This document shows positions 12,956 through 27,170 of a stretch of DNA of 64,000 nt, one piece after another. The DNA lies in the NCBI RefSeq assembly GCF_014982975.1, contig NZ_JADCKL010000003.1:62001-126000 (forward strand). Direction: 5' to 3'. Source of the stretch: Claveliimonas monacensis (lineage in GTDB: Bacteria > Bacillota > Clostridia > Lachnospirales > Lachnospiraceae). Position 1 is the first letter of the stretch; the number at the start of each line of letters is the position of its first letter. The position numbers and the translations under genes were made by a program. The notes below the pieces were generated by a model. It made no database searches and was not told the DNA's origin. It was given only the letters and a program-made list of their open reading frames with translations.

Positions 12956-14116
12956 ATGGGAGAAGAAAAGGCCAAGATCTATTTTGACAATGGGAGCACT
13001 TCCTGGCCCAAGGCGCCGGGAGTGGCGGAGGCGGTGGGGCGCCTCCTCACAGAGGGAGCCTTCAATATCAACCGGGGAAACTATGAGGGAGCTTACGAGG
13101 TGGAAGCGGCGGTGCTGGACACAAGGGAACAGCTGGCCCGGCTTTTCCATGCGGAAAACTCCCGGCGGGTCATCTTCACACCGGGGATCACCCACTCCCT
13201 GAATTATTTTATCCGGGGATTTTTAAAAAGAGGGGACCATGTGCTTGTCACCGGGATGGAGCACAATGCGGTCATGCGCCCTCTGCGGTGTATGGAGAAG
13301 GAGGGAGTTACCTGGGAGTGCATCCCCACGGACAGAGAGGGAAATGTGCGCTCCGCTGACGTGGAGGGGATGATCCGGAAGAACACAAGGGCGGTCATTG
13401 TCCTCCATGCATCGAATGTATGTGGCACCATTGTCCCGGTGGAGGAGATCGGGCGGATCTGCCGGGAGAGGGGTGTGTTCTTTGTGGTGGATACGGCCCA
13501 GAGCGCGGGAACCATCCCCCTGGATATGGAGGAGGCCTGCGTGGATTTCCTGGCTTTTACAGGTCACAAGGGGCTGCTGGGTCCCCAGGGGGTGGGAGGA
13601 TTTCTTATCTCCGACAGCCTGGATGAGCAGATGGAGCCCCTCATCGCAGGCGGCACGGGCAGCATCTCTGATAGTCTGGATATGCCCCGCACTCTGCCGG
13701 ATAAGTACGAGAGCGGTACCGTGAACCTGCCTGGTATCATTGGACTTCACGCGGCTCTCTCCTACATCGAGGAGACGGGGCTGGATGTGATCCACAAAAA
13801 GAAGATGGAGCTGACAGAGCATTTCCTCGAGGAAGTGAAGAAGATCCCCGCTGTCCGCATTGTGGGAAGACAGGGGACAGAAGGCCGGGTGGCAGTGGTC
13901 TCTCTGGACTTTGAGGGGCGGGATAATGCCCTGGCCGCCTTTGAGCTGGAACAGCAGTACGGTATTATGACGCGGGTAGGCCTTCACTGTGCGCCTATGG
14001 CCCACAGGGCTCTCGGTACATTCCCGGGGGGAACGGTCCGGTTCGCCTTCAGCGCCGCCAACACAGAGGAAGAGGTGGATCGCTGTGCTGCGGCCCTGCA
14101 CAGCATGCTGGACTGA
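12956..14116 (+). CDS. Class-V aminotransferase / cysteine desulfurase-like enzyme
   Basis: A 386-residue PLP enzyme of the cysteine desulfurase-like family (TIGR01977-type, EGL-variant), which takes sulfur from cysteine or selenium from selenocysteine as an enzyme persulfide or selenide. The PLP site shows VDTAQSAG and the Schiff-base Lys205 in FTGHKGLLGPQG; the likely chalcogen-accepting Cys345 lies in GLHCAPMAHR. The ATG at 12956 has AAGGAGG 9 bases upstream and fits the family start better than an in-frame ATG at 12890. Members of this subfamily often sit beside selenium genes, and here an Se/S-carrier-like gene follows two genes later, which supports a donor role. Whether S or Se is the substrate is not visible. 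Confidence 0.9.
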   Translation: MGEEKAKIYFDNGSTSWPKAPGVAEAVGRLLTEGAFNINRGNYEGAYEVEAAVLDTREQLARLFHAENSRRVIFTPGITHSLNYFIRGFLKRGDHVLVTGMEHNAVMRPLRCMEKEGVTWECIPTDREGNVRSADVEGMIRKNTRAVIVLHASNVCGTIVPVEEIGRICRERGVFFVVDTAQSAGTIPLDMEEACVDFLAFTGHKGLLGPQGVGGFLISDSLDEQMEPLIAGGTGSISDSLDMPRTLPDKYESGTVNLPGIIGLHAALSYIEETGLDVIHKKKMELTEHFLEEVKKIPAVRIVGRQGTEGRVAVVSLDFEGRDNALAAFELEQQYGIMTRVGLHCAPMAHRALGTFPGGTVRFAFSAANTEEEVDRCAAALHSMLD

Positions 14117-14208
14117 GGAGTCAGATGAAAGGTACACACATACTAATAGAAAAAAACTATATATAAAAAGATACATTATAAAAAACAATAGCAAACCTCG
14201 CTCTTGCG

Positions 14209-14252
14209 ATTGTCCGGAAATTGTAAACGTGTTACGGTTATAAAAGGACAAT
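14209..14252 (+). promoter_or_regulatory. Possible structured mRNA leader before the first double-cubane gene
   Basis: The 174-bp gap between the desulfurase and the next gene is AT-rich (14117-14200) and then contains nested pairing: ATTGTCC (14209-14215) with GGACAAT (14246-14252), enclosing AATTGTAA (14219-14226) with TTACGGTT (14232-14239, two G-U pairs). It stands about 40 bases before the start codon. No known riboswitch class was recognised; it may be a regulator-binding site or a processing/stability hairpin. Confidence 0.35.
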
Positions 14253-14290
14253 TCTGAAAATATCAGATACACAAGAGGAGGTTTTTTATT

Positions 14291-15565
14291 ATGGCTGATT
14301 ACAGAAAAATGTGGGAAGATCTTGGCATGGATGTTGATACGCACGACCAGCTCTGCGAAGTGCTGCCCCAGGCCTTCGGCGATGTATATCTCTCCCAGGA
14401 GAACAGGCCCGAGTCCATGGATTACTACAATTTTGTAGTGGCGGAGATCCACGGTGTGCGGCCGGCAGAGCTCATCGAGCACCAGAAAAAAGGCGGAAAA
14501 GTGTTTGGAACTTTCTGCGTGTATGTGCCGGATGAGATCGTGTTTGCGGCAGATGCCATTGCCACAGGTTTATGCGGCGGTTCCCAGTTCTGGGTGCCGG
14601 GAGGAGAGAAGGTTCTCCCCACAAATACATGCCCTCTCATCAAGGCCTCCGTAGGCGCAAGGCTTGACCGGACCTGCCCCTTCTTCCGGATTGCGGATAT
14701 GTATGTAGGAGAGACGACCTGTGACGGCAAGAAGAAAGCCTGGGAGATCCTGGCTGAGGACGTGCCGGTGCATGTCATGGATCTGCCCCAGATGAAGAGA
14801 GAGAAGGATGTCTGTTCCTGGGCGGATGAGATCCGTACCTTCAAAAAAGTGGTGGAGGACTTCACAGGAAATGAGATCACTGCGGAGAAACTGGCAGCCA
14901 GCATCCATATGATCAACAACAAGAGAAAGGCACTGGAGAGGCTTTACGCCTTCAGAAAGAACGACAAACTGCCCATCAGCGGAAAGGACGTGCTCCTTAT
15001 CTCCCAGATTGCCTTCTATGACGATCCCACAAGATTTGCGGAGATGACAAACAAGCTCTGTGATGAGCTGGAGCAGAGAGTGGCAGACGGCATCAGTGTC
15101 TTCCCGGAGGGAACAAAGAGGATCATGCTTACCGGCACACCGCTGGCCATCCCCAACTGGAAGATCCACAACCTGGTGGAGACAAGCGGCGGCGCTGTAG
15201 TCTGTGAGGAGATGTGTACGGGAACACGGTACTTTGAGCGTCTGGTGGATGAGACAAAGACGACCGTGGACGAGCAGATCGACGCCCTGGCGGAGAGATA
15301 TATGGGCATCAACTGCGCATGCTTCACACCGAACCACGGCAGGATCGACGATATCATCCGCCTGGCTAAAGAGTACAAGGTGGACGGCGTCATTGATGTG
15401 AATCTGAAATTCTGCAGCCTCTACGATGTGGAAGGCTACACAGTGGAGAGAGAACTTCAGAAAGCAGGCATCCCGGTTCTCGGCATTGAGACAGACTATG
15501 TGGACAGTGATGCGCAGCAGCTCCGCACAAGGATCAGCGCTTTTATAGAGATGCTGGGGGCATAA
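14291..15565 (+). CDS. 2-hydroxyacyl-CoA dehydratase / double-cubane cluster family protein (paralogue 1)
   Basis: A 424-residue cytosolic Fe-S protein of the HgdB/BcrC/FldB family. Candidate cluster cysteines shared with the paralogue at 16681 include Cys76 (GTFCVYVP), Cys95, Cys114 (TNTCPLIKA), Cys129 (RTCPFF), Cys144 (GETTCDGKKK), Cys305/309, Cys342/344 and Cys375. Family members are dehydratases activated by an ATP-driven reductase or, in the DCCP branch, [8Fe-9S] double-cubane proteins that reduce small molecules. A matching activase is two genes downstream, but no CoA-transferase or acyl-CoA dehydrogenase is in the cluster, so I favour a DCCP-like reductase over an amino-acid fermentation dehydratase. 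The SD is AGAGGAGG, and the downstream gene starts one base after the stop codon. Confidence 0.85.
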   Translation: MADYRKMWEDLGMDVDTHDQLCEVLPQAFGDVYLSQENRPESMDYYNFVVAEIHGVRPAELIEHQKKGGKVFGTFCVYVPDEIVFAADAIATGLCGGSQFWVPGGEKVLPTNTCPLIKASVGARLDRTCPFFRIADMYVGETTCDGKKKAWEILAEDVPVHVMDLPQMKREKDVCSWADEIRTFKKVVEDFTGNEITAEKLAASIHMINNKRKALERLYAFRKNDKLPISGKDVLLISQIAFYDDPTRFAEMTNKLCDELEQRVADGISVFPEGTKRIMLTGTPLAIPNWKIHNLVETSGGAVVCEEMCTGTRYFERLVDETKTTVDEQIDALAERYMGINCACFTPNHGRIDDIIRLAKEYKVDGVIDVNLKFCSLYDVEGYTVERELQKAGIPVLGIETDYVDSDAQQLRTRISAFIEMLGA

Positions 15566-15566
15566 A

Positions 15567-15827
15567 ATGAAAGAGATACAGCATTATGTGCTTTTCCCGA
15601 ACCATGACAATGGAATGCGGCTGTATAAAAAACTGAAAGAGCAGGGGGTGAAGGCCGTCATTGCGCCGACACCCCGGAGCGCCAGCAAATGCTGCGGGAT
15701 CTCCCTTCTTGTCAGGGAGGAGGATATAGAAAAGATCCGCTGCTGCGTGCAGGAGAACAGCATAGAGATCCTGGATATCGTGACAGTGGAAAAAGATGTA
15801 AATCCGGGGCGGGACCGGTACTGCTGA
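15567..15827 (+). CDS. DUF3343 putative Se/S carrier-like protein
   Basis: An 86-residue protein of the DUF3343 family (PF11823, named 'putative Se/S carrier protein-like'). It has a ferredoxin-like alpha/beta pattern, a vicinal Cys pair in SASKCCGISL (about residues 36-45), and a further Cys in KIRCCVQ; the last residue before the stop is also Cys. Such proteins are thought to carry persulfide or selenide between a desulfurase and acceptors. The ATG follows the upstream stop as TAAAATG, so translation is coupled. The stop is TGA, directly after Cys, and the frame stays open to a TAA at 15870-15872, one base before the activase ATG; ordinary termination is still the simplest reading. Confidence 0.8.
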   Translation: MKEIQHYVLFPNHDNGMRLYKKLKEQGVKAVIAPTPRSASKCCGISLLVREEDIEKIRCCVQENSIEILDIVTVEKDVNPGRDRYC

Positions 15828-15873
15828 CAAGAGAAACAGGCCTTTGACAGAGGTGGAAAGGATAACAGGTAAA

Positions 15874-16653
15874 ATGGATTACATAGGCATTGACATAGGC
15901 TCCACAGCAGCCAAGGTAGTGGCCAGAGGAGACCATGAGATGGAGTTTGCGCTCCCCACAGGCTGGAGCAGCAAGGAGACGGCGAACATCATAAAGGAGA
16001 GACTGGCAGGAGATGGCATTGATGTGACCGGTGATGGGGCAAAAGTAGTGGCCACAGGCTATGGAAGGATCGCCGTGGAATACGCGGACTACGTCATCAC
16101 GGAAATCACCTGCCACGCCAGGGGCGGACGGGAGATGGGAAGCGATGACTGCGCCGTTATCGACGTGGGAGGACAGGACACGAAGGTGATCCTCATCAGC
16201 CACGGCGTTGTGCAGGACTTCCTCATGAATGATAAATGCTCCGCGGGTACAGGGAAATTCCTGGAGATCATGGCAAACCGTCTGGGCGTGGATCTACATG
16301 AGCTATTTGACATGGCGGAAGGAGGAGAGACGCTCTCCATCAGTTCCCTGTGTACCGTGTTTGCCGAGTCAGAGGTGATCAACTATATCGGCGAGGGCCG
16401 CAGAAGAGAGGACATCGCCGCAGGAGTGGTGGACTCTGTGGCTGCCAAGGTGGCTCAGCTTGCCATGAGGAAAAATCTGCCGGATCAGATCATTCTGACA
16501 GGAGGTCTCTCTGATAGCAGATATTTTGCAAAGATCCTGTCAGAGAAGATCGGAAAAACAATATCCCCCACAGACAGGGGAAGATATGCAGGAGCCCTGG
16601 GGGCATCGCTGCTGGCTGAGGAGAAGACAAAGCGGGCGGCCGCAAAACTGTAG
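15874..16653 (+). CDS. Acyl-CoA dehydratase activase (BadF/HgdC-type ATPase)
   Basis: A 259-residue ASKHA-fold ATPase that injects low-potential electrons, driven by ATP hydrolysis, into its HgdB-like or double-cubane partner. The phosphate-binding loop is YIGIDIGSTAAKVV at the N terminus, and the homodimer-bridging [4Fe-4S] ligands are expected in NDKCSAGTGKFLE and SSLCTVFAESEV. A second nucleotide motif is VIDVGGQDTKV. The ATG at 15874 gives the family N terminus; a TTG at 15844 would add an atypical leader. It lies between two HgdB-like paralogues and is the only activase in the window, so it may serve both. Confidence 0.93.
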   Translation: MDYIGIDIGSTAAKVVARGDHEMEFALPTGWSSKETANIIKERLAGDGIDVTGDGAKVVATGYGRIAVEYADYVITEITCHARGGREMGSDDCAVIDVGGQDTKVILISHGVVQDFLMNDKCSAGTGKFLEIMANRLGVDLHELFDMAEGGETLSISSLCTVFAESEVINYIGEGRRREDIAAGVVDSVAAKVAQLAMRKNLPDQIILTGGLSDSRYFAKILSEKIGKTISPTDRGRYAGALGASLLAEEKTKRAAAKL

Positions 16654-16680
16654 ACAAAGAGAGAAAAGGAGAAGAAAGAC

Positions 16681-17832
16681 ATGGAATTAGTGAAAGATCT
16701 GCCAGAAGTGTTTGAGGAATTTGCAGAACAGAGGAAAAATTCTTTCCTCGGCATGAAGAAACTGAAAGAGCAGGGCATACCGGTGGTGGGCGCTTACTGC
16801 ACATACTTCCCACAGGAAATCGCTATGGCCATGGGAGCGGCCACAGTGGGACTTTGCTCCACATCGGATGAGACCATCCCGGATGCAGAGAGGGATCTGC
16901 CGAAGAACTTATGTCCCCTTATCAAGTCCAGCTACGGATTTGCAAAGACAGAGAAATGTCCCTTCTTCTATTTCTCCGACGTGGTAGTGGGAGAGACCAC
17001 CTGCGATGGAAAAAAGAAGATGTACGAGTACATGTCAGAGTTTAAAGATGTATTTGTCATGGATCTTCCCAACACCCAGAGCCCGGCGGCCCTGGAACTA
17101 TGGAAAGGCGAGATCATCCGCTTTAAGGAATATCTGGAGAAGAAGTTTGACGTGACCATCACGGAGGATGATATCCGGGAAGCCATCCACACCAACAATG
17201 AAGTCAAGTTATCCCTGAAGGGACTCTACGAGCTGATGCGCAATGACCCGGCGCCCATCACAGGACATGACCTTTTCAAGGTTCTGTACGGAAGTACTTT
17301 CAAGTTTGACAGAAAGGCCATCCCGGCCGAGGTGGACGCCCTTGTGGAGAAGATCAAAAAGGAGTATGCGGAAGGAAAAATGCTGGAGAAAAAGCCCCGC
17401 ATCCTCATTACAGGATGTCCGGTAGGCGGAGCCACAGAGAAGATCATTGACGCTGTGGAGAGCAACGGAGGCGTGGTTGTCACATTTGAAAACTGTAATG
17501 GAGCCAAATCCATCGACAAGCTGGTGGACGAGGAGGAGCCGGATGTATACGAGGCACTGGCAAGAAGATATCTGAACATCGGATGCTCTGTCATGACACC
17601 CAACCCCAACAGGCTGGAGCTCCTTGGCAGACTCATCGACGAGTACAAGGTGGACGGTGTTGTGGAGATGACGCTGCAGGCCTGCCACACATACAATGTG
17701 GAGGCGTTTGGCATCCGGAAATTTGTGAATGAGGAGAAAGGCCTTCCCTACATCAATGTGGAGACCGACTACTCCCAGGCAGATATCGGCCAGCTCAACA
17801 CAAGGATCGCTGCATTTTTAGAGATGCTGTAA
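16681..17832 (+). CDS. 2-hydroxyacyl-CoA dehydratase / double-cubane cluster family protein (paralogue 2, YjiM-like)
   Basis: A 383-residue paralogue of the protein at 14291. Cys40, 59, 78, 93, 108, 272, 302 and 335 match cysteines there; Cys246 (ITGCPVGG) is extra. The length equals that of E. coli YjiM as I recall it, and that gene also pairs with an activase (YjiL). The N-terminal domain has GAYCTYFPQEI, the middle NLCPLIKSS and GETTCDGKKKM, and the C-terminal domain MTPNPNR and LQACHTYN. The SD is AAAGGAG, 28 bp after the activase stop. It could form a heterodimer with paralogue 1 (as HgdA/HgdB do) or be an independent double-cubane homodimer. Confidence 0.85.
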   Translation: MELVKDLPEVFEEFAEQRKNSFLGMKKLKEQGIPVVGAYCTYFPQEIAMAMGAATVGLCSTSDETIPDAERDLPKNLCPLIKSSYGFAKTEKCPFFYFSDVVVGETTCDGKKKMYEYMSEFKDVFVMDLPNTQSPAALELWKGEIIRFKEYLEKKFDVTITEDDIREAIHTNNEVKLSLKGLYELMRNDPAPITGHDLFKVLYGSTFKFDRKAIPAEVDALVEKIKKEYAEGKMLEKKPRILITGCPVGGATEKIIDAVESNGGVVVTFENCNGAKSIDKLVDEEEPDVYEALARRYLNIGCSVMTPNPNRLELLGRLIDEYKVDGVVEMTLQACHTYNVEAFGIRKFVNEEKGLPYINVETDYSQADIGQLNTRIAAFLEML

Positions 17833-17879
17833 GGTTATAGACAAAATCAATAAATAGGCTTATATATCCATCTAATTTA

Positions 17880-17909
17880 TTGGACGGAGCCGGGGTGAAT
17901 GTATATAAT
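17880..17909 (+). promoter_or_regulatory. Promoter of rhodanese lipoprotein 1
   Basis: TTGGAC (17880-17885) and TATAAT (17904-17909) are 18 bp apart in the 133-bp gap after the second double-cubane gene. The rhodanese lipoprotein therefore probably has its own strong transcript besides read-through. Confidence 0.6.
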
Positions 17910-17965
17910 AGGTAAGGATATAAAAAGGTAAGGTATTGCCAGTTTATAAGGAGGTTTACAGTACT

Positions 17966-19072
17966 ATGAAAAAGAGAGCGTTAGCTGCGCTTCTTTGTGT
18001 GACCATGACAGCGGCTATGCTGGCAGGATGCGGCTCAGGATCTTCCTCTGAGGAGGAGACAACACAGGAGTCCACAGAGGAAACCACGGAAGAGAGCACA
18101 GAAGACGTGGAAGTGGAGCCGGTGGAGACAAGAACCGTGTATGTGACACCCCAGTGGGTAAACAGTGCGCTGAACGGAGAGCAGGAGGGATATGAGGATA
18201 TCCTGATCGCAGAGGTAGGCTACGGTGATGTGGCTGACTGTGTATCCTACAACGAGGGACATGTTCCGGGCGCTATCTATGTGGATAACTGCGAAGTGGA
18301 AGACGCCACAGGAAGCGAGGAAGGTGCATACAACCTTCTGGCAGCAGACGAAGTAGTTTCAAATATGCTGAACCACGGTATCACAAAGGATACAAAGGTG
18401 GTTCTCTACGGAGCTGACGTCAGCGGTACAGCAAGACAGGCATTTGCCTATCTGTGGGCAGGCGTTGAGGATGTAAAGATCATCAACGGCGGCATTGACG
18501 CATGGACAGAGGCAGGATACGATACAGAGACAGACGTAAACGAAGGTGAGGCGGCAGATGACTTCGGCGTAGAGGCTCCCGCACATCCGGAGTACCGTCT
18601 GGACATCCAGGATGCAAAAGAGAAGCTGGAGAGCGATGACAACTTCCGGCTTGTCAGCATCCGCAGCGAGGAAGAGTGGCTTGGCGAGTCCAGCGGATAC
18701 AACTACATGGACAAGGCAGGCGAGCCGGAAGGCGCAGTATGGGGCAAGGGCTCCGAGACATCTTCTGATGTAAACGGATTCCTCAATGACGATGGGACAG
18801 TGAAGGATCTGGCAGGATTCGAAGAGGTGTGGGCTGACTGTGACTTCACACTGGACAATGAGCTTTCCTTCTACTGCGGTACAGGCTGGAGAGCATGTGT
18901 TCCTTTCCTTGTTCTTTACGAGAACGGCTACGACAACATTTCTGTATATGACGGTGGATGGTATGAGTGGCTGATGCATGATGATTATCCGGTACAGGTA
19001 GGCGATCCTGCAAGTGAGGACTGCGTACACACAACAGTAGGAGAGCTTCCAACCGGTAAGGCTGCTGAATAA
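17966..19072 (+). CDS. Rhodanese-domain lipoprotein 1 (tandem domains, extracytoplasmic)
   Basis: A 368-residue lipoprotein with a lipobox ending LAGC (Cys22) after a 21-residue signal, then an acidic Thr/Ser/Glu linker and two rhodanese domains. The first (about 65-200) has Ala150 where a catalytic Cys would lie (LYGADVSG), so it is inactive or structural. The second (about 215-345) carries Cys304 in CGTGWRA, an intact six-residue active loop typical of sulfurtransferases. It would move sulfane sulfur outside the membrane, perhaps from thiosulfate or polysulfide. The ATG at 17966 (SD AAGGAGG) gives a normal signal peptide. It has its own promoter and a terminator 20 bp downstream. Resemblance to E. 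coli YnjE is in architecture only. Confidence 0.9.
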   Translation: MKKRALAALLCVTMTAAMLAGCGSGSSSEEETTQESTEETTEESTEDVEVEPVETRTVYVTPQWVNSALNGEQEGYEDILIAEVGYGDVADCVSYNEGHVPGAIYVDNCEVEDATGSEEGAYNLLAADEVVSNMLNHGITKDTKVVLYGADVSGTARQAFAYLWAGVEDVKIINGGIDAWTEAGYDTETDVNEGEAADDFGVEAPAHPEYRLDIQDAKEKLESDDNFRLVSIRSEEEWLGESSGYNYMDKAGEPEGAVWGKGSETSSDVNGFLNDDGTVKDLAGFEEVWADCDFTLDNELSFYCGTGWRACVPFLVLYENGYDNISVYDGGWYEWLMHDDYPVQVGDPASEDCVHTTVGELPTGKAAE

Positions 19073-19091
19073 GCACAAGCGAATCAATAAG

Positions 19092-19123
19092 GCGTTGCCG
19101 TTTTACCGCGGCAGCGCTTTTTA
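19092..19123 (+). terminator. Intrinsic terminator after rhodanese lipoprotein 1
   Basis: GCGTTGCCG (19092-19100) pairs with CGGCAGCGC (19109-19117, one G-U), followed by TTTTTAT. The next gene starts only 60 bp later without a clear promoter, so the site may act as a partial terminator lowering expression of the downstream cluster relative to the lipoprotein. Confidence 0.8.
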
Positions 19124-19177
19124 TAACATGGGGTGGATTGCAGAGCAGCCCTGTACAAAGACTGCACGGAGGAAATC

Positions 19178-19624
19178 ATGAAAAAAATCGGATATATTCT
19201 GGCGCTTGTTCTGGAAATCGCAGCTCTTGCCGGCGCCTATATCATACATTATTTTACAAGACGCAAGCTTGGAATGGTCAGATATCTGAATTTCAAGAAC
19301 ATGACATGGGAGAGGGACTATCCTATGGGCCCACTGAAGACAGGATGCGTGGCAGTGGTGGCTGTGCTGACGGTTCTGGTGCTTCTGTTTTTTCTGAAAA
19401 AGAGAAAGGAGACCTCCCGCCTCGTATACGCCATGAACATCTGTATGATCGTTCTGACAGCGCTGTACGCCGGATATACCCTTGGAAGTTCCACGGAGAC
19501 AATGACGGACTATTATTTTATCAGCATCCTGTTCCTGCTGGCGGCAGCGGTGCAGGTCATCAAGACAGCCATTGCCGTTCTGACGGCAAAAGGACAGACA
19601 GAGGGAGCAAAGGGTGAAAAATAA
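19178..19624 (+). CDS. Small four-helix membrane protein of unknown function
   Basis: A 148-residue protein with four predicted membrane helices (about residues 4-24, 55-72, 83-103 and 112-135) and a basic C terminus. I do not recognise a named family. The ATG at 19178 has GGAGG just upstream; an earlier in-frame ATG at 19133 would lack an SD and a signal-like start. It overlaps the next gene by 11 bp, so it belongs to the TVP38 block. A protein of similar size and helix count (43224-43652) follows the YdjY-like lipoprotein elsewhere in the window, suggesting the same kind of membrane partner, although sequence similarity is not obvious. Confidence 0.75.
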   Translation: MKKIGYILALVLEIAALAGAYIIHYFTRRKLGMVRYLNFKNMTWERDYPMGPLKTGCVAVVAVLTVLVLLFFLKKRKETSRLVYAMNICMIVLTALYAGYTLGSSTETMTDYYFISILFLLAAAVQVIKTAIAVLTAKGQTEGAKGEK

Positions 19625-20297
19625 AAAACTTTGGATCTTTATCGGTCTGGTTGCAGTGATCCTTGTTCTGAACCATATATTCGGATGGTCTTCCTACCTG
19701 GGAGATACGGACAACCTGGCCTTTCTTAAAAATATGATACAGGATAACCTGCCCGGAGCCATTGCCATCTACATGGCGGTAACCATCATAGGGAGCGTTG
19801 TCCTGGCGCTGCCGGGCGTCACCTTTGCCATACTGGCAGGGCTGATCTTCGGCCCGGTCCTTGGGACGGTGCTGTGTACAGTTTCCGCCACGGCAGGAGC
19901 GGTGCTGGCATTCCTGGCGGGAAGATTCTTCCTCAGGGACAGCATAAGGCCGGCGGCCATGAAGAATAAATATCTGAAAAAGTGGCTGTTTGATGAGTCA
20001 GGAAAAAATCAGCTTTTCGTGCTGATGATCACCAGGCTTGTCCCTCTCTTTCCCTACAATCTGCAGAATTTTGCCTATGGGGTGACGGACATCAGCTTTG
20101 TCACCTACACGGTGGGCTCCTTTGTGTTCATGATCCCCGGGACGGCCATGTATACCATCGGCACGGCGGGACTTGCGGATGCAGAAAACAGGATGCTGTA
20201 CATAGGGGTTGCCCTGGCCATAGCGGTGGTGGTTGTTTTTGCCGGGATCATTTTAAAGAAAAAGTATATACAGGAGGAGCCGGATGAATCAGAATAA
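19614..20297 (+). CDS. TVP38/TMEM64 family membrane protein 1
   Basis: A 227-residue polytopic protein with the VTT (TVP38/TMEM64/DedA-like) domain: the signature F-A-x-L-A-G-L-I-F-G-P-V-L-G is visible as FAILAGLIFGPVLG, with a second G-rich block near MITRLVPLFPYNLQNF. Eukaryotic relatives are lipid scramblases; bacterial roles are mostly unknown, though E. coli members sit in an operon with a peroxidase-like and a rhodanese gene. It starts with GTG at 19614 (GAGGGAG 5 bases upstream) inside the previous gene and its end overlaps the next by 14 bp. Tight overlaps indicate translational coupling across the block. Confidence 0.9.
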   Translation: MKNKKLWIFIGLVAVILVLNHIFGWSSYLGDTDNLAFLKNMIQDNLPGAIAIYMAVTIIGSVVLALPGVTFAILAGLIFGPVLGTVLCTVSATAGAVLAFLAGRFFLRDSIRPAAMKNKYLKKWLFDESGKNQLFVLMITRLVPLFPYNLQNFAYGVTDISFVTYTVGSFVFMIPGTAMYTIGTAGLADAENRMLYIGVALAIAVVVVFAGIILKKKYIQEEPDESE

Positions 20298-21273
20298 GAA
20301 GACAGCGGATCCATCTGCCTGCGTGCACTGCCATCTGTGTCAGAAGAACTGCGTTTTTCTTGACAGGTATGGGATAGATATAGGAGATACGGAAAAGCTT
20401 CAGAAGCTTGCTATGCACTGCTTTCTCTGTGGGAAATGTTCCCGGGTCTGTCCGAAAGGGATTGACGGGCGGGGCGTGATCCTGGAGATGAGAAGGCAGG
20501 CAGCGGCCCGAAACGGCGGGAAACCGTCGGAGAAAGGATATGGCATGCTGCTGTGGGAGAAGAAGGATTACCGCTTCCGGAACTACAGGAATGGGACCGG
20601 AAGAAGTGTGCTGTTTACCGGATGTAATTTCCCTTCCTTCTACCCGGAGACGACCAGATATCTGGCGAAACTGCTGTGGGAGAAGGCTGGTATGGGTACA
20701 GTTTTTGACTGCTGCGGGAAGCCGGTGGCGGAGCTGGGAATGAAGGATGCGGAAGAAAAGATCCTGTCTGACATGAACCGGCGGCTGGAGGAGATGGGAC
20801 CGGAAGAGCTAGTGATGCTCTGCCCTAACTGCTATCACTTCTTAAAGGGCCGTCTTGGCGTAAGGGTGACCGATATATACACGAAACTGGAGGAGCTGGG
20901 GCTTGGACAGAAAGTCCCTGGCAGACTGCAGGTCTTCCCACCCTGCCCGGACCGGAAAGACAGGGAACTGCTGGGGAAGATACGGCCTTTTCTGGAGCAG
21001 GAGCCGTGCCTGGAAGAGAATGTCCAGTGCTGCGGCCTGGGCGGATGCGGCAGTGTGAAAGAGCCGGATCTGGCAGCGTCCATGACGGAACCGATGGATA
21101 AAGGGCAGATAGTCTGTACCTACTGCGCATCCTGCAGCGGAGCATTTACGAGAAAAGGGTATAAGGCACAGCATCTGCTTGTCAGCATACTGGGACGGGA
21201 GGAGACACCGGATGTGAAGCGGTCTCTTCTCAACAGAGTAAAGTCAGCATACTGGAGGGAGAAAAGAAGATGA
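20284..21273 (+). CDS. (Fe-S)-binding protein with two 4Fe-4S motifs and CCG domains
   Basis: A 329-residue Cys-rich redox protein resembling HdrD/GlpC/LutA-type proteins. The N terminus has two ferredoxin-like motifs, CVHCHLCQKNC and CFLCGKCSRVCPKG; the C-terminal part has CCG-type cysteines in DCCGKPV, LCPNCYHFL, QCCGLGGCG and CTYCASCSG. CCG domains can bind noncubane [4Fe-4S] clusters that act on thiols or disulfides, as in heterodisulfide reductase. It has no membrane helix, but it is encoded between two TVP38 membrane proteins with overlaps at both ends (14 bp and 4 bp), suggesting a membrane-linked thiol or selenol redox complex. The ATG at 20284 has AGGAGG 6 bases upstream. Confidence 0.85.
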   Translation: MNQNKKTADPSACVHCHLCQKNCVFLDRYGIDIGDTEKLQKLAMHCFLCGKCSRVCPKGIDGRGVILEMRRQAAARNGGKPSEKGYGMLLWEKKDYRFRNYRNGTGRSVLFTGCNFPSFYPETTRYLAKLLWEKAGMGTVFDCCGKPVAELGMKDAEEKILSDMNRRLEEMGPEELVMLCPNCYHFLKGRLGVRVTDIYTKLEELGLGQKVPGRLQVFPPCPDRKDRELLGKIRPFLEQEPCLEENVQCCGLGGCGSVKEPDLAASMTEPMDKGQIVCTYCASCSGAFTRKGYKAQHLLVSILGREETPDVKRSLLNRVKSAYWREKRR

Positions 21274-21977
21274 AACAGAAAAACTGGGTAAAAAAAGTGA
21301 TCATTCTTGTGATTGTCCTCGTCTGTGCGGCAGTCTATTTCCTTGTACCGCCTGTGAAAAGCAGCATGAACCGGGTGTTCGGCATGTTTGCCAGCGGTGA
21401 TTTTGATGTGGTGAGAAATTTCGTGGCATCCTACGGGGCCTGGGCAGCGCTTGTGTCCTTCATGCTTATGATCTTTCAGTCTGTGGCAGCGCCGCTGCCG
21501 GCTTTCCTTCTCACTCTTGCAAACGCCAACCTGTTTGGATGGTGGCAGGGAGCCATTCTCTCCTGGAGTAGCGCCATGGCAGGGGCGGCTGTCTGCTTTT
21601 TCATTGCCCGGATCCTGGGAAGAGATGTGGCGGAGGGACTGACAAGCAAGGCGGGAATCGCCCAGATCGATACATTTTTTGAAAAATACGGAAGAAACAC
21701 GATTCTGATCTGCCGTCTTCTACCTTTTGTGTCATTTGATATCGTAAGCTACGCGGCAGGACTGACATCTATGTCTTTTAAGTCCTTTTTTATCGCTACA
21801 GGTATCGGACAGCTGCCGGCCACGATTGTTTATTCCTATGTGGGCGGTATGCTGACAGGGGGCGCCCAGCTCCTCATGACAGGGCTTCTCATCCTGTTCG
21901 CCTTATCAGCGCTTATCGTGATGCTGCGGAAGATTTATATGGACAGGCAGGGAAAGCAGAAAGGAGGAAACGAATAA
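21270..21977 (+). CDS. TVP38/TMEM64 family membrane protein 2
   Basis: A 235-residue VTT-domain membrane protein, paralogous to the one at 19614. It has an N-terminal helix (about 8-28), the conserved LANANLFGWWQG region (about 88-100) and RLLPFVSFDIVSYAAGL (about 150-166), equivalent to the RLVPLFPYNL block of paralogue 1. The ATG overlaps the previous stop as ATGA and its own TAA shares one base with the next ATG, so the four genes from 19614 to 22309 are a coupled unit. Two different TVP38 proteins around an Fe-S protein suggests that the pair works together. Confidence 0.9.
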   Translation: MKQKNWVKKVIILVIVLVCAAVYFLVPPVKSSMNRVFGMFASGDFDVVRNFVASYGAWAALVSFMLMIFQSVAAPLPAFLLTLANANLFGWWQGAILSWSSAMAGAAVCFFIARILGRDVAEGLTSKAGIAQIDTFFEKYGRNTILICRLLPFVSFDIVSYAAGLTSMSFKSFFIATGIGQLPATIVYSYVGGMLTGGAQLLMTGLLILFALSALIVMLRKIYMDRQGKQKGGNE

Positions 21978-22309
21978 TGGAAACTTACTACAATCCGGAA
22001 GATCTGGAAAAATTCGGGACAATAGGTGAGGAGGCGCCTGCTCTTGCAGAGAAGTTCTTTGACTACTACGGAGCTGTTTTTGCGGAGGGAGCCCTGACAG
22101 CCAGGGAGAAGTCCCTCATTGCGCTGGCGGTGGCCCATGCGGTTCAATGCCCTTACTGTATTGATTCCTATACAAACGACTGTCTGAACAAAGGCGTCAG
22201 CGAGGAGCAGATGACAGAGGCGGTGCATGTGGCTGCTGCGATCCGCGGGGGAGCCACGCTGGTACACGGTGTACAGATGAAAAATATTGTAAAAAAATTG
22301 GAGCTGTAA
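21977..22309 (+). CDS. CMD/AhpD-like redox protein, arsenosugar/selenodomain-associated peroxidase-like
   Basis: A 110-residue all-alpha carboxymuconolactone decarboxylase (CMD) family protein with the AhpD-type active site HAVQCPYCIDSY: His54, Cys58 and Cys61, plus Cys69. It matches the small peroxidase-like proteins that accompany ArsS radical SAM enzymes, and the ArsS-like gene follows after 4 bp. The CxxC could reduce a peroxide or handle an organo-chalcogen. The strong SD AGGAGG lies in the preceding gene. It is a Cys form; no in-frame TGA is present at the active site. Confidence 0.88.
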   Translation: METYYNPEDLEKFGTIGEEAPALAEKFFDYYGAVFAEGALTAREKSLIALAVAHAVQCPYCIDSYTNDCLNKGVSEEQMTEAVHVAAAIRGGATLVHGVQMKNIVKKLEL

Positions 22310-22313
22310 GCAT

Positions 22314-23297
22314 ATGAGTCAGGCGCTAGAAGATTTAAAAGAATTAAAAAACATCCCGGACTTTCAGGATCGGATCACAGGGGAAGAATATAGGTACACA
22401 GCAGATAAGATGGAAGTTATGCAGATCAATGTAGGCAGACTCTGCAATCTTGCCTGCAAACACTGCCATGTGGAGGCTGGCCCGGGTAGGACAGAGATCA
22501 TGGACCGGAAAGTCATGGAGGCCTGCCTTGCCGTGTGCAGGGAGCAGAAGATCCCCACCATTGACATTACCGGTGGAGCGCCGGAGATGAATCCGGATTT
22601 TGAATGGCTTGTGGAAGAGGCCTGCAGGACAGTAAGCCATGTGATCGTCCGCACAAATCTCGTTATTCTGGAGGAAGAAACATACAGGCATCTGCCGGAG
22701 TTTTATGCAGATCACAAAGTGGAGATTGTCTGTTCGCTTCCCTACTACCGGGCAAAGGAGATGAACAGGGTGAGAGGAGAAGGAACGTTTGAGACGGCCA
22801 TCCGGGTGATACGCAGGCTCAATGAACTGGGATACGGAAGGGAGAAGGATCTGGTGCTCAATATGGTGTACAATCCGGCAGGGGCATATTTTCCGCCCGT
22901 CCAGGACGCCATGGAAAAAGAGTATAAGGTAAAGCTGTGGGAAGACTACGGCATTGTGTTTAACAGCCTTTTTACGATCACAAATAACCCCATGGGACGT
23001 TTCGAGGCGTTTTTAAAGCGCAGCGGAAATCTGGAGAGCTATATGAAGAAGCTTTCAGATGCATTTAACGAAGCCACTCTTCCAGGGCTTATGTGCCGGC
23101 ATCAGCTTTCAGTAGGCTATGATGGACAGGTCTATGACTGTGACTTTAACCAGGCGGCGGAGCTGCCGGTTCTGACAGGGGAGACCATCTTTGACATGGT
23201 GGGAAAATCCTGTAGAAAAAGGAAAATCTGCCTTGCAAATCATTGCTACGGATGCACGGCAGGACAGGGCTCAAGCTGTGGGGGAGCCACAGAATAG
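22314..23297 (+). CDS. Radical SAM protein, ArsS-like (rSAM/selenodomain family)
   Basis: A 327-residue radical SAM enzyme. The SAM cluster cysteines are Cys44, Cys48 and Cys51 (CNLACKHCH), with the GGAPE motif at TGGAPEMN. The C-terminal DUF3641-type region has MCRHQLSVGYDGQVYDCDFNQ split by its own cysteines, and ends with CYGCTAGQGSSCGG, a signature I recognise from ArsS/TIGR04167. In arsenosugar producers ArsS forms the As-C bond to a deoxyadenosyl-derived group. Here there is no arsM in the window, so the substrate may differ (selenium or sulfur). Some family members are selenoproteins; this one ends with TAG and uses Cys. It is 4 bp after the CMD gene. Confidence 0.88.
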   Translation: MSQALEDLKELKNIPDFQDRITGEEYRYTADKMEVMQINVGRLCNLACKHCHVEAGPGRTEIMDRKVMEACLAVCREQKIPTIDITGGAPEMNPDFEWLVEEACRTVSHVIVRTNLVILEEETYRHLPEFYADHKVEIVCSLPYYRAKEMNRVRGEGTFETAIRVIRRLNELGYGREKDLVLNMVYNPAGAYFPPVQDAMEKEYKVKLWEDYGIVFNSLFTITNNPMGRFEAFLKRSGNLESYMKKLSDAFNEATLPGLMCRHQLSVGYDGQVYDCDFNQAAELPVLTGETIFDMVGKSCRKRKICLANHCYGCTAGQGSSCGGATE

Positions 23298-23316
23298 AGC
23301 GGGAAAGGAGAAGCGA

Positions 23317-23745
23317 ATGACAAACGAAGAGATCAAAAATCTTTTTATGCAGGGAATCGACTGTTCCCAGGTGGTGACAGGAACATTTGCAGACAGGATG
23401 CAGCTCACACAAGAGCAGGCGAGAAAAGTGTCCTCCTGTTTCGGAGGCGGCATGATGTGCGGGGAGACCTGCGGAGCCGTGACGGGCGCACTGATGGTGA
23501 TCGGTATGGTCTACGGACACAGCCGGGAGAATGATCAGGAGCAGAAAAATGCCATGGCGGCAAAGACTGCGGAATTCAAACAGCTTTTCGCGCAGAAGTA
23601 TCCATCCTGCATGTGCCGGGAACTTCTGGGACACGATATTTCAAAGCCAGGAGAGATGGATAAAGTTCTGGAAAAAGGGCTGATGTTCGACTTCTGCCCC
23701 GGAGTAGTGGAAGATACGATTGAGATACTGGAGAAGATTTTATAA
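23317..23745 (+). CDS. C_GCAxxG_C_C family redox protein
   Basis: A 142-residue protein with the C_GCAxxG_C_C pattern: Cys16 (GIDCSQ), Cys41 (SSCFGGGM), Cys48 and Cys52 (MCGETCGAVTGALM), plus later cysteines CMC and FC. The family is small, redox active and of unknown function; it often neighbours metal- and chalcogen-handling genes. The ATG at 23317 (SD AAAGGAG) is 19 bp after the radical SAM stop and is preferred over upstream in-frame codons that overlap that gene. The next gene starts 2 bp after its stop, so it belongs to the same transcript. Confidence 0.85.
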   Translation: MTNEEIKNLFMQGIDCSQVVTGTFADRMQLTQEQARKVSSCFGGGMMCGETCGAVTGALMVIGMVYGHSRENDQEQKNAMAAKTAEFKQLFAQKYPSCMCRELLGHDISKPGEMDKVLEKGLMFDFCPGVVEDTIEILEKIL

Positions 23746-23747
23746 TC

Positions 23748-25079
23748 ATGAAAAGAGCAGTGATTATATTTACAAGAGTGCCGGTTCCCGGACAGACCAA
23801 GACCCGGATGATGCCTCATTTCTCCCCGGAGCAGTGTGCCCGGCTGCATACCTGTTTTTTGAAGGATATTGCCGGACAGTGCCGGGGCTGCGGGGCGGAT
23901 ATTTTCGTCTGCTATACGCCGGAAGCTGGAAAAAGAAAGCTGGAAAAAATCATAGGGAAGGCGGCAGGATGGTTTCCGCAGACTGACGGCGGCCTGGGAG
24001 AGCGGATGTATACAGCTCTGGCAGACGTGCTTGGCAGAGGATACGGTTCCTGCCTTCTTGTGGGAACGGATGTGCCTGAGCTGCGCAGGGAAAGCTTGGA
24101 AAAAGCTTTTGAAGTTTTGGAAAAGAATGATGTGGTGTTTGGCAGGACTGAGGACGGAGGCTACTACCTTGTGGGGATGAAACATCCTTTAAAGGAGGCC
24201 TTTTCTCTGAATGCGTACGGCCACGGAAAAGTGCTGGAGGAGACACTGGCGGAACTGGAAGAAAAAGGCTTTGCAGTGGGTTTTACAGACATGCTGTCTG
24301 ACATGGACACCCCGGAGGACCTACGGGGATACAGAAGAAGGATGACCCAGGACAGAAGGCTGAAGGAAAGCTTTACAGGTCGTTACCTGGCCCGCATCAG
24401 CCGGATCTCCATCATCATTCCTGTTTACAACGAGAGCTGTACCATCGAAAAGATGCAGAGACAGCTTCTTCCCTTGAAGGACAGGTGCGAGATCCTTTTC
24501 GTGGACGGGGGAAGCACGGACGATACGCTGGCGAAGATTTCGCCTGCCTTCCGGGTCATCCGCTCCCGGAAAGGGCGTGCCTGGCAGATGAATGAAGGGG
24601 CTGCCCGCAGCAGCGGAGACATTCTTTTTTTCCTGCACTGCGACAGCGAGCTTCCGGCTCATCCCCTGGAGAGGATACGCAGAGTGATGCGTGATCACAG
24701 GGCGGGCTGTTTCGGGATTGCCTTTCACTCAAAGAATTTCTTCATGTTCACCTGCCGGGTGATCTCCAATCACAGGATCCGGGACCGGAAAGTCATGTTC
24801 GGGGATCAGGGGATCTTTCTGGATCGGGAGCTGTTCTTTGAGGCAGGCATGTTTCCGGAGATCCCTCTGATGGAGGATTACCAGTTATCCCTGACTCTGA
24901 AGGAGATGGATGTGAAGCTGGGTATGGCAGACAGGCGAATCTATACATCGGACCGCAGGTTTCCGCCGGGGACGATCCCGAAACTTAAGGTGATGTGGAA
25001 GATGAACCGTCTCCGGAAGATGTACCGGGACGGGATGGATATAGAGAAGATCGCGCAGATGTACCGGGATGTGAGATGA
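23748..25079 (+). CDS. Fused TIGR04282-TIGR04283 glycosyltransferase
   Basis: A 443-residue fusion of two transferases that are usually separate genes. Residues 1-200 are a DUF2064/TIGR04282 nucleotidyl-/glycosyltransferase-like domain (IFTRVPVPGQTKTRM at the N terminus, VGTDVPEL, DGGYYLVG). Residues 219-443 are a GT-A family-2 glycosyltransferase of the TIGR04283 type (ISIIIPVYNE, FVDGGSTDDT, FLHCDSELP as the DxD-like site, GDQGIF and the acceptor-site EDYQLS). Both families are named for rSAM/selenodomain or arsenosugar clusters, and they follow the ArsS-like gene here as expected. The fusion is seamless, with no stop codon between halves. It likely builds the sugar part of the cluster's product in the cytosol. 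Confidence 0.9.
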   Translation: MKRAVIIFTRVPVPGQTKTRMMPHFSPEQCARLHTCFLKDIAGQCRGCGADIFVCYTPEAGKRKLEKIIGKAAGWFPQTDGGLGERMYTALADVLGRGYGSCLLVGTDVPELRRESLEKAFEVLEKNDVVFGRTEDGGYYLVGMKHPLKEAFSLNAYGHGKVLEETLAELEEKGFAVGFTDMLSDMDTPEDLRGYRRRMTQDRRLKESFTGRYLARISRISIIIPVYNESCTIEKMQRQLLPLKDRCEILFVDGGSTDDTLAKISPAFRVIRSRKGRAWQMNEGAARSSGDILFFLHCDSELPAHPLERIRRVMRDHRAGCFGIAFHSKNFFMFTCRVISNHRIRDRKVMFGDQGIFLDRELFFEAGMFPEIPLMEDYQLSLTLKEMDVKLGMADRRIYTSDRRFPPGTIPKLKVMWKMNRLRKMYRDGMDIEKIAQMYRDVR

Positions 25080-25127
25080 CAACCGGAGCAGATAAGGAAG
25101 AGTGCGGCACAAAGGAGACAAAAGGAT

Positions 25128-26156
25128 ATGACAGACAGGAATAAGGATCTGGATATGACAGAGGGGCTGAGGGTCTATGTTGAGACGGAAGGTTACAGAA
25201 GAGCCCTTGGACTTCCGGCAGAAGTGCAGGAAGAATACACGCTTCTGGCGCAGGGTGAGTACAACAGAAATTACGTGTTCACCCACCCGGTGACAGGGGA
25301 GAGACTTGTTCTCAGGATTAATTTCGGCAGTCAGATGCATCTGGAACATCAGATTGAATACGAGTACAACGCGCTGAAAATACTGGAAATATCCGGTAGA
25401 ACACCCCGGCCTCTCTATGTGGATGACAGCCGCGCCTACATGCCCAATGGCATCATGGTCATGGAGTATCTGCCGGGTCATGCCCTGGATTATGGGACAG
25501 AGCTTTTCCGGGCGGCCGCCTGTCTGGCGGATATTCACAGCGTGCCTCTTTCGGCAGCCCACCATCTGATCACGCCGGAAAACCCGGTGCGTGCCATCCT
25601 GGAAGAGTGTGAGCAGATGGTCCGCACCTATATGGACAGCCCGCTTGGGGAGCTGGATAAGAAAGCCATGATACGCAGACTTCTGGATCTTGTGTGGCGG
25701 GAAGCGGACAGCCTGTCCCCGGCCTCATACCAGTGCTGCATTAATACGGAACTGAATTCCACCAACTTCCTGATAAACGGGGACGGCGGGAAGGATTATC
25801 TTATAGACTGGGAAAAACCTCTCTGCGGTGAACCGGCCCAGGATTTGGGACATTTCCTTGCGCCCACCACCACGTTCTGGAAGACGGATGTCATACTGGA
25901 CGAGACGCAGATGCGGGCTTTTATACAGAAGTATACAGAGGCTGTGGATGGAAGATTTGACGTGGACGAATTGTGGGAGAGAGTAAGCGTCTACATGACC
26001 GTCACCTGCCTGCGGGGCATTACCTGGTGCGCCATGGCCTGGGTGGAGTACCAGCAGCCGGGACGGGAGCTGGTAAACGAGTCCACCTGGCGGAAGCTGG
26101 AGGCCTATCTGGAGGAGGGATTTCTGGAAAAGATCCGAAAATTTATAGAAAGGTAG
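25128..26156 (+). CDS. APH/choline-kinase-like phosphotransferase with altered catalytic loop
   Basis: A 342-residue kinase-fold protein of the aminoglycoside phosphotransferase/choline kinase group. The N-lobe has LAQGEYNRNYVFT (glycine-loop-like) and the ATP-binding Lys is replaced or shifted (LVLRINFG). The catalytic loop normally reads HGDxxxxN but is NTELNSTN here (Asn206-Thr207-Glu208 ... Asn213); the metal-binding Asp227 in YLIDWEKP is intact. Glu208 may act in place of Asp, or the enzyme may do different chemistry. Its place 48 bp after the fused glycosyltransferase suggests phosphorylation of a sugar or sugar-chalcogen intermediate. The SD is AAAAGG. Confidence 0.8.
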   Translation: MTDRNKDLDMTEGLRVYVETEGYRRALGLPAEVQEEYTLLAQGEYNRNYVFTHPVTGERLVLRINFGSQMHLEHQIEYEYNALKILEISGRTPRPLYVDDSRAYMPNGIMVMEYLPGHALDYGTELFRAAACLADIHSVPLSAAHHLITPENPVRAILEECEQMVRTYMDSPLGELDKKAMIRRLLDLVWREADSLSPASYQCCINTELNSTNFLINGDGGKDYLIDWEKPLCGEPAQDLGHFLAPTTTFWKTDVILDETQMRAFIQKYTEAVDGRFDVDELWERVSVYMTVTCLRGITWCAMAWVEYQQPGRELVNESTWRKLEAYLEEGFLEKIRKFIER

Positions 26157-26174
26157 CAGTGGACGGCAGGGAAA

Positions 26175-26197
26175 ATTTATAGAATGTTTCTATAAAT
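26175..26197. promoter_or_regulatory. Operator-like palindrome before rhodanese lipoprotein 2
   Basis: A 10-bp inverted repeat (26175-26184 and 26188-26197) around a 3-base centre, ATTTATAGAA-TGT-TTCTATAAAT, lies 38 bp upstream of the -35 box. The 14-bp sequence GAAAATTTATAGAA also occurs at 26137-26150, giving a direct half-site copy. It is too AT-rich for a terminator and looks like a binding site for a dimeric regulator. Confidence 0.45.
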
Positions 26198-26234
26198 ATA
26201 TGTCATAAATCTATATACAATTCTGACAATTCGC

Positions 26235-26263
26235 TTGAATAGACAGAAAAGAGATTTTATAAT
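26235..26263 (+). promoter_or_regulatory. Promoter of rhodanese lipoprotein 2
   Basis: TTGAAT (26235-26240) and TATAAT (26258-26263) have 17-bp spacing, a strong vegetative promoter in the 144-bp gap before the gene. Confidence 0.7.
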
Positions 26264-26300
26264 TGTAATACACCATACGACAAGGAGGATAAAAGGTTTT

Positions 26301-27170
26301 ATGAAAAGAAGAGTAGCAGCCGTTCTGATGGCAGCAGCCATGGCGGCGACAATGATGACAGCATGTGGTTCAGGCGAGACAGAAGACACAAGTGCAGAGA
26401 CAACGGAAAGCACGGACTCCTCTTCAGACAGCAGTGAGAGTACAGATGGAGAATATCAGTATGTATCCGCAGCGGACGCTGTAGCGGCAGCGAAAGCCGG
26501 AGATACACATGTGCTGGATGTCCGTGAGTGGGCCAATTATGTAAGCGGAAGAGTGGTAAACTCTGAGTGGTGTCCGATCTTCCCTCTGGAGGATGACTCT
26601 CTTGTAGAGACTATGACAACATATGCAGAGGAGAACCTGGATGATGATAAAGATATCTATCTCATCTGCAACAGCGGACAGAAAGGTGCTCAGAAAGCCA
26701 CAGGCGTTCTTCAGGATGCAGGTATCGATGCTTCCCGTATCTATACAGTAGAAGGCGGCGCAAAGGCACTGGCTGAGGAGGACGGCGCCCTCACTACAAA
26801 CCGTACAGAGGAGAATATCGAGTGGCAGTATGTATCCGGCGCTGAGGCTGTGGAGGCCGTAGGCAATGAGGATATCCAGATTCTGGATGTGCGTGACGAC
26901 GATACATATGCACAGGGACACCTGGAGGGATCTCTTCAGTGTAACCTGAAGGATGTGGAGAGCACAGATGCCCAGACAGCACTCTATGAGATGGCTACAT
27001 CTGACATGGATCCGGAGAAACCGGTATACCTTCTGTGCTACAGCGGAAACAACTGTGCAAAGACAGGTATCTCTGTTCTTAAGGACGCAGGTTTTGATGT
27101 GTCTGAGCTGTACATTATCGAAAACGGAGCAAAAGATGCTGACGTGGCAGCAGCTTTTGTGACAGAATAA
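26301..27170 (+). CDS. Rhodanese-domain lipoprotein 2 (two intact active sites)
   Basis: A 289-residue lipoprotein: signal peptide with lipobox MTAC (Cys22), Ser/Thr/Asp-rich linker, and two single-domain-type rhodanese modules (about 50-165 and 175-289). Both have a catalytic Cys: Cys123 in CNSGQKG and Cys246 in CYSGNNC, each with the preceding hydrophobic strand (YLI, YLL). It would bind and transfer sulfane sulfur (or selenium) on the outer face of the membrane. It differs from lipoprotein 1, which is the longer thiosulfate-sulfurtransferase type with one active site. It has its own promoter, a nearby palindrome and a terminator, and ends the co-directional block. Confidence 0.9.
   Translation: MKRRVAAVLMAAAMAATMMTACGSGETEDTSAETTESTDSSSDSSESTDGEYQYVSAADAVAAAKAGDTHVLDVREWANYVSGRVVNSEWCPIFPLEDDSLVETMTTYAEENLDDDKDIYLICNSGQKGAQKATGVLQDAGIDASRIYTVEGGAKALAEEDGALTTNRTEENIEWQYVSGAEAVEAVGNEDIQILDVRDDDTYAQGHLEGSLQCNLKDVESTDAQTALYEMATSDMDPEKPVYLLCYSGNNCAKTGISVLKDAGFDVSELYIIENGAKDADVAAAFVTE

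Follow-up and report, generated by a model that had tools for sequence, protein, structure and literature searches.

In the present study, we analyzed a 64,000-bp stretch of the genome of the gut bacterium Claveliimonas monacensis (Lachnospiraceae; hereafter the window, to which coordinates refer unless stated otherwise), and in particular a gene run at 12956–27170 and a palindromic operator that appears to place this run in a selenium regulon. The run comprises 16 plus-strand genes (g1–g16) and is split at 17.83/17.97 kb into two adjacent operons, module A (g1–g5) and module B (g6–g16). A previous inspection of the letters alone (the sequence-only reading) had counted 14 consecutive genes, many of them overlapping by 1–14 bp, and had divided them into halves at 19.1–19.2 kb. 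Overlaps were found, but in only four of the 15 gaps (1, 4, 11, and 14 bp), the other genes being 1–174 bp apart; the intergenic distances from g1 to g16 are 174, 1, 16, 27, 133, 105, −11, −14, −4, −1, 4, 19, 2, 48, and 144 bp. The natural joint is instead between g5, which ends at 17832, and g6, which starts at 17966, a 133-bp gap (17833–17965) in which an operator and a promoter-like site are located.

Families were assigned by hmmscan, with BLAST being used for matches to Escherichia coli, and the families named by the sequence-only reading (desulfurase, two double-cubane proteins, activase, Se/S carrier, rhodanese, VTT, CCG, CMD, ArsS, C_GCAxxG, fused transferase, and kinase) were all borne out. 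Module A begins with a pyridoxal phosphate enzyme resembling cysteine desulfurases and selenocysteine (Sec) lyases (g1, 12956–14116; TIGR01977), the catalytic-loop cysteine of which lies in VGLHCA; the name SclA for a Sec lyase was dropped for g1, which scored 384 bits against NF040779, under the cut-off of 525. The proteins g2 (14291–15565, 513 bits) and g5 (16681–17832, 540 bits) both exceed the 350-bit cut-off of NF040772 and have an activase partner of the BcrAD/BadFG type, ATP-dependent g4 (15844–16653; TIGR00241, 219 bits), which identifies them as double-cubane-cluster anaerobic reductases. Regarding the double-cubane-cluster protein 6ENO/7YYL, the structure of which is solved, g2 aligns with it over its full length (495 bits), a match that does not set the physiological substrate, and the window differs in having two paralogues for one activase. 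The remaining product is a small DUF3343/Se_S_carrier protein (g3, 15567–15827; PF11823, 75 bits).

Module B begins and ends with lipoproteins with two rhodanese domains each, the signal peptides of which were assigned by eye. The first, g6 (17966–19072), is YnjE-like with a CGTGWR loop (38% identity over 292 aa to E. coli YnjE), and the last, g16 (26301–27170), carries a cysteine in both loops. Two VTT/TVP38 proteins, YdjX-like g8 (19614–20297; PF09335, 32% identity to YdjX) and YdjZ-like g10 (21270–21977; 55% identity over 229 aa to E. coli YdjZ), enclose a CCG-domain Fe-S oxidoreductase with 4Fe-4S motifs (g9, 20284–21273; hmmscan), and are preceded by a small membrane protein with no family above its cut-off (g7, 19178–19624). 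These are followed by a CMD/AhpD-like protein (g11, 21977–22309; TIGR04169, 203 bits, cut-off 120) and an ArsS-type radical S-adenosylmethionine enzyme (g12, 22314–23297; TIGR04167, 443 bits, cut-off 300), in which the CxxxCxxC motif reads CNLACKHC, the C terminus is a DUF3641 domain (PF12345, 181 bits), and the tail is GQGSSCGG. A C_GCAxxG_C_C redox protein (g13, 23317–23745; hmmscan), a fusion of TIGR04282 and TIGR04283 transferases (g14, 23748–25079; 199 and 224 bits, cut-offs 134 and 182), and an APH/choline-kinase-like phosphotransferase (g15, 25128–26156; PF01636, 69 bits) come next, before g16.

The genes g2, g6, and g16 are each preceded, at a distance of approximately 110–140 bp, by a palindrome, ATAGA-N5-TCTAT, a weaker copy of which lies in front of a satellite operon at 42 kb. 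The motif was first noticed upstream of g6 in an alignment of ten sequences, the window included, which also shows a promoter (TTGGAC, TATAAT) that is clearest among close relatives; ATAG-N7-CTAT was then also recognized in front of g2 and g16, YedE in two relatives (L052 and L081; L and G numbers denote loci and genomes), and stand-alone double-cubane genes. The cores, to which no strand is assigned, are ATAGAAAAAAACTAT before g2 (14146–14160), ATAGACAAAATCAAT before g6 at the start of module B (17837–17851), and ATAGAATGTTTCTAT before g16 (26179–26193), and the weaker operator-like site is at 41964–41978. Promoter-like sites on the plus strand are TGGACG-17-TATAAT for module B (17881–17909), with a similar stretch upstream of g6 in relatives, and TTGAAT-17-TATAAT for g16 (26235–26263). 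A known RNA element in the cluster was discarded, with no Rfam family matching at its gathering score within 8000–32000.

The operator was examined using a symmetrized 35-bp matrix built on 36 sites from the sel, yedE, and proline-reductase operons of other genomes, which was applied only to selected stretches of sequence. The four highest scores in the window were those at 26179 (32.6), 14146 (20.3), 17837 (19.4), and 41964 (11.6), and fifth place had a score of 5.0. In 60 Markov-simulated sequences of 64 kb, the mean maximum was 6.1 and the highest 13.9, and the site at 41964, taken alone, could therefore be due to chance; however, the two genes that it precedes have relatives in ArsS loci. 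Among 33 loci, consisting of 24 ArsS loci (two near copies included) and nine double-cubane loci, 34 of the 42 sites scoring at least 11 fell in the 3.7% of the sequence upstream of module genes (32 of 40 without the near copy L072), an enrichment with a binomial p of 2e-41 that is uncorrected for relatedness or for the discovery of the motif through g6. The operator-bearing loci include L061–L067, which hold module A genes without module B. When exact cores scoring below 11 were counted as well, sites were present in 16 of 22 non-redundant ArsS loci and seven of nine double-cubane loci.

The genome of C. monacensis itself encodes the selenium LysR regulator (NF040786, 422 bits, cut-off 250) beside selB. 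Its complete sel locus (L158, C12:316000-335000, minus strand) reads yedF-selD-selA-selB-lysR, desulfurase-yedE, and then proline-reductase genes, with YedE (TIGR04112, 466 bits), YedF (TIGR03527, 214 bits), PrdA (TIGR04480, 994 bits), and PrdC (TIGR04481, 628 bits) assigned by profile; matrix scores in this locus were 33.1 before yedF, 28.0 before the proline racemase gene, 13.2 before the desulfurase gene, and 13.5 before prdC. Together with 20 other sel loci of the family (21 in total), core sites were detected in 18, the exceptions being L196 and L201, in which no LysR gene lies beside selD though one is encoded elsewhere in their genomes, and L205, the LysR of which is only 41% identical. 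Core sites at most 250 bp upstream were found for yedF in 16 of the 18 loci with a placeable start, for the desulfurase(-yedE) genes in 9/17, for proline racemase in 10/12, and for selD in 3/21. Five distinct perfect 16-base matches occur in the C. monacensis genome: before yedF, g16, a PrdA-like gene (146 bits over the first 132 positions of TIGR04480), and tdh-kbl, and one without an evident link. The perfect palindrome at tdh-kbl was observed in three genomes (L163, L216, and L218), tdh being confirmed in G299 and the site also being present in G301; it may link the conversion of threonine to glycine with selenium-dependent glycine use. Another perfect palindrome, with ATAGTTT/AAACTAT-like arms (G000:C10:18895, G299:C5:103702, and G300:C1:3445), resembles the MET box of a different LysR-type regulator.

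In a family sample of 299 genomes, ArsS (above the TIGR04167 cut-off) was found in 12 and a double-cubane reductase (above 350 bits) in 42, and both accompany selenium traits in tests that ignore phylogeny. SelD was encoded by 11/12 ArsS genomes versus 86/287 others (p=2e-5) and by 40/42 double-cubane genomes versus 57/257 others, and SelD with an in-frame TGA (Sec-type SelD) by 11/12 ArsS genomes versus 28/287 others (p=5e-10). The selenium LysR regulator showed the same tendency (10/12 versus 45/287 for ArsS, 35/42 versus 20/257 for the double-cubane reductase), and tRNA-Sec scored above its cut-off in 32 of the 35 genomes checked, including that of the window. The chalcogen link of the sequence-only reading thus gained support in a more precise form, namely selenium, from the selenium-LysR operator and the co-occurrence with Sec-type SelD.

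The two modules are mostly separate. A scan of named genomes with the ArsS protein as query yielded 93 relatives, the best 80 of which were analyzed as loci. The 28 Lachnospiraceae ArsS loci covered overall were reduced to 22 by leaving out L078, L079, L080, and L082 (the same genomes twice), L071 (99.9% identical to L073), and L072 (99.4% identical to L050). Modules A and B were adjacent in four of these 22, some of the loci being short, with adjacency not fully judgeable in L059 and L077 (short contigs) and L060 (which ends near ArsS). A tblastn search with the 16 proteins recovered the whole run in Lachnoclostridium sp. An118 (L070), Eubacterium sp. ER2 (L073), and Mordavella massiliensis (L074), and the halves thus also occur together outside the window; their never doing so would have told against the sequence-only reading. 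The same search found module B without a neighboring module A in L050, L072 (Claveliimonas bilis), L075, L076, and others, and module A genes without module B in L061, L063, L064, L067, and L068. Among the 12 ArsS genomes of the family sample, the modules were adjacent only in that of the window, as far as the assemblies show; in eight, the double-cubane genes lay either 92 kb or more from ArsS or on a different contig, and contig breaks in the drafts may hide adjacency, and in three (G165, G244, and G287) none was found at E 1e-80. In G296, of the same genus, approximately 350 kb separate ArsS (1.889 Mb) from the double-cubane genes (2.236 Mb). Co-occurrence of ArsS and double-cubane genes was seen overall (9/12 ArsS genomes versus 33/287 others), but vanished within Sec-type SelD genomes (8/11 versus 23/28, p=0.66), and was dropped as direct evidence of a joint pathway. 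The idea of one pathway in a single 14-gene cluster was consequently discarded in favor of two operons. Outside Lachnospiraceae, ArsS was found with a YnjE-like rhodanese and a VTT protein in a metagenome-assembled genome of Atopococcus tabaci (L133).

Taken together, these results indicate that both modules very probably belong to the regulon of the selenium LysR regulator (NF040786), even when they are far apart, because one operator is common to both and to the sel operons. The operator and its positions are read directly from the DNA, and we infer from them that the NF040786 protein binds the palindrome. At g6 and desulfurase-yedE, the operator precedes the presumed transcription start by approximately 70 bp (the start sites being inferred), the usual distance for activation by LysR-type regulators; the sign of control may differ at yedF and proline racemase because the operator lies much nearer the gene there. 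In Methanococcus, the LysR-type regulator HrsM represses the cysteine isogenes when the selenium supply is sufficient, and the mRNA of yedE increases in selenium starvation (PMC11097638). By analogy with this behavior, both operons are expected to change with selenium status, the likeliest response being an increase when selenium is limiting. On balance, we slightly favor the explanation that modules A and B are selenium-regulon operons under the control of the selenium LysR regulator for the capture and assimilation of selenium (or sulfur).

Several points weigh against this explanation. The motif was first seen upstream of g6, and g6 and its relatives are therefore a discovery rather than a test; the training sites of the matrix were also chosen by the same core pattern, and some AT-rich unrelated loci score high (L137, 20; L105, 17). 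Genome-wide, the short pattern with one mismatch showed no enrichment compared with its reversed control (48/40 versus 44/55), and it was dropped as a finder of the regulon, with the matrix being used instead. The site is lacking in six of the 22 ArsS loci (L051, L055, L056, L058, L059, and L085) and in two of the nine double-cubane loci (L068 and L069). Within Sec-type SelD genomes, ArsS is not further tied to the LysR regulator (10/11 versus 26/28, p=1.0), nor is the tie of the double-cubane reductase significant (30/31 versus 6/8, p=0.10). Membership in the regulon does not prove selenium to be the substrate because proline reductase is also a member. Furthermore, biochemical work places ArsS among the arsenic enzymes (Cheng 2021, as cited in PMC12159101), and one genome of the same family (G005, L051) has an ArsM-like gene beside ArsS.

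The steps from regulon membership to chemistry are a reasoned guess. The lipoprotein rhodaneses g6 and g16 and the VTT proteins g8 and g10, joined by the YdjY- and CCG-type Fe-S proteins, would capture, move, and reduce selenium (or sulfur) species at the envelope when selenium status changes. The desulfurase and DUF3343 protein of module A would mobilize and carry the species, the ATP-activated double-cubane reductases may be the source of very low-potential electrons, and ArsS, the fused transferase, and the kinase would make an organoselenium compound, adenosyl- or sugar-linked, from part of it. Selenium capture and assimilation proper is a close call, falling just short of probable as the job of the modules; an action of ArsS on selenium is doubtful, and a sugar-linked sulfur or selenium metabolite, as proposed by the sequence-only reading, is put forward as a hypothesis. 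It is also conceivable, if unlikely, that a branch of the ArsS family has switched from arsenic to selenium in those gut Lachnospiraceae that decode Sec, such that the rhodanese/VTT/double-cubane capture system would feed reduced selenium to ArsS, which would place a 5'-deoxyadenosyl group on it, with the transferase and kinase finishing a selenosugar; ydjXYZ-ynjABCDE and yjiML of E. coli would then be a reduced form of this system.

Among the alternatives to a selenium-capture role, module B may be in the regulon only through Sec and cysteine forms of its redox enzymes, its chemistry being that of sulfur or of general redox with selenium not a substrate. We consider this possible, though less than probable, and it draws on the ArsS tail GxGSS[C/U]GG, which has Sec in L056, L084, L085, L087–L089, and L147, with Gordonibacter among the carriers, and cysteine in g12, as well as on the sharing of the operator with genes for proline reductase, a selenoenzyme. 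A 2026 review (PMC13188914) lists TIGR04167 as a selenoprotein family and includes selenoproteins among the members of the C_GCAxxG, CMD-like, and rhodanese families. However, no plausible in-frame Sec was found in the 16 window genes, and no TGA was seen within aligned module A genes in the loci searched, yet both modules carry the operator. A hidden selenoprotein in the cluster was discarded on this ground, and the window differs in this respect from the SAO and Tso selenoprotein operons, known here from a review, which have several Sec proteins per operon. The TGA at which g14 ends, with g15 following in the same frame 48 bp on (25077–25128), was ruled out as a Sec codon because relatives (L050, L056, L070, and L073) use TAA or TAG as the stop there.

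An arsenosugar-type pathway acting on external methylated arsenic, such as host-made dimethylarsenic, would account for the lack of ArsM and is quite unlikely. ArsS, CMD, and both transferase families of module B (TIGR04167, TIGR04169, TIGR04282, and TIGR04283) are all above the cut-offs of the NCBI "arsenosugar biosynthesis" set, and ArsM lies near ArsS in 18 of 64 loci outside Lachnospiraceae, as found by profile with four ArsM seeds. The window adds to that set the double-rhodanese lipoproteins, CCG protein, kinase, and selenium operator, and in those 64 loci, many of them inter-related, the g6 rhodanese profile matched one and the CCG and kinase profiles none. No recognizable ArsM is encoded in the C. 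monacensis genome, which is 99.8% complete (best NF008823 match 62 bits, cut-off 263); this cut-off is strict, only three of 31 ArsS genomes examined passing it, and the absence of ArsM elsewhere is therefore weaker evidence. In Lachnospiraceae, ArsM was near ArsS in one of the 22 loci, L051, which was itself a seed. This locus holds an ArsM-like gene, CMD, ArsS, and C_GCAxxG at approximately 9400–12000, with no match to the rhodanese, VTT, CCG, or transferase families and no operator, and is likely a true arsenic version for comparison; the selenium operator is found at most of the others. It is highly improbable that the palindrome belongs instead to another LysR-type regulator of sulfur or cysteine, with the sel genes in a general sulfur regulon. 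LysR-type sites resemble each other (the T-N11-A rule), another site in the genome has a related perfect palindrome, the arms of which are AAACTAT, and G244 and G117 encode the LysR elsewhere although their sel locus has no core site. Against this, the sites track the sel, yedE, and proline-reductase operons, and the loci with no LysR beside selD (L196 and L201) have no core site, although neither does L205 with its diverged LysR.

Module A has the same family set as the selenium-linked genes of Slackia heliotrinireducens, which are tabulated as Sec lyase, DUF3343, activase, 2-hydroxyglutaryl dehydratase subunit, YedF, and SelD (PMC5322559, Table 1). In the passages of that paper that were covered, neither an operator nor TVP38 appears, and in the window, module A adjoins an ArsS operon. 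The term "undescribed" in the sequence-only reading consequently does not apply to module A, already published as a gene set; the place of module B in a selenium regulon was not found in print. The operator and an ArsM-less link between ArsS and selenium were likewise absent from the literature searched, with subscription papers not excluded; the parts are known, and the regulon and context are apparently new. The defined operator makes a vague family cluster a testable selenium regulon, adds two VTT proteins, two rhodanese lipoproteins, the double-cubane reductases, and ArsS to its candidates, and suggests that, for gut Lachnospiraceae, "arsenosugar biosynthesis" may be a misnomer in the databases.

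A link to uncharacterized and easily studied genes is offered by E. coli ydjXYZ-ynjABCD and ynjE (1833401–1840774, approximately 6–14 kb from selD, which starts at 1846965), of which YdjX, YdjZ, and YnjE have relatives in g8, g10, and g6, respectively, and YdjY in the satellite operon. The E. coli operon has the AhpD-like gene ynjA, to which g11 showed no match by BLAST or profile, and there is no ArsS, transferase, CCG, or kinase gene there. As in module A, yjiML appears to be a double-cubane/activase pair. YjiL is tabulated as an activator of hydroxyglutaryl-CoA dehydratase (PMC9068703). Moreover, ydjXYZ-ynjABCD, ynjE, and yjiML are all among the operons listed as directly activated by FNR in PMC3688515, and both sets of parts are therefore switched on together there, alongside many unrelated anaerobic operons.

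The satellite operon consists of a plus-strand gene for a lipoprotein with a YdjY domain (42082–43224; NF040466, 183 bits; BLAST match to E. coli YdjY), which has BLAST relatives in the ArsS loci L052, L055, L060, and L085, and a small membrane protein gene on the same strand (43224–43652), the product of which belongs to no family and is 28–32% identical to one in L052, L055, and L060. A thioredoxin-like gene, named by eye (41457–41864), is located just before the site at 41964. Directly 3' of the main run, an AraC-family regulator is encoded on the minus strand (27218–28045), and an AraC-type gene, grouped by BLAST, also follows module B in L070.

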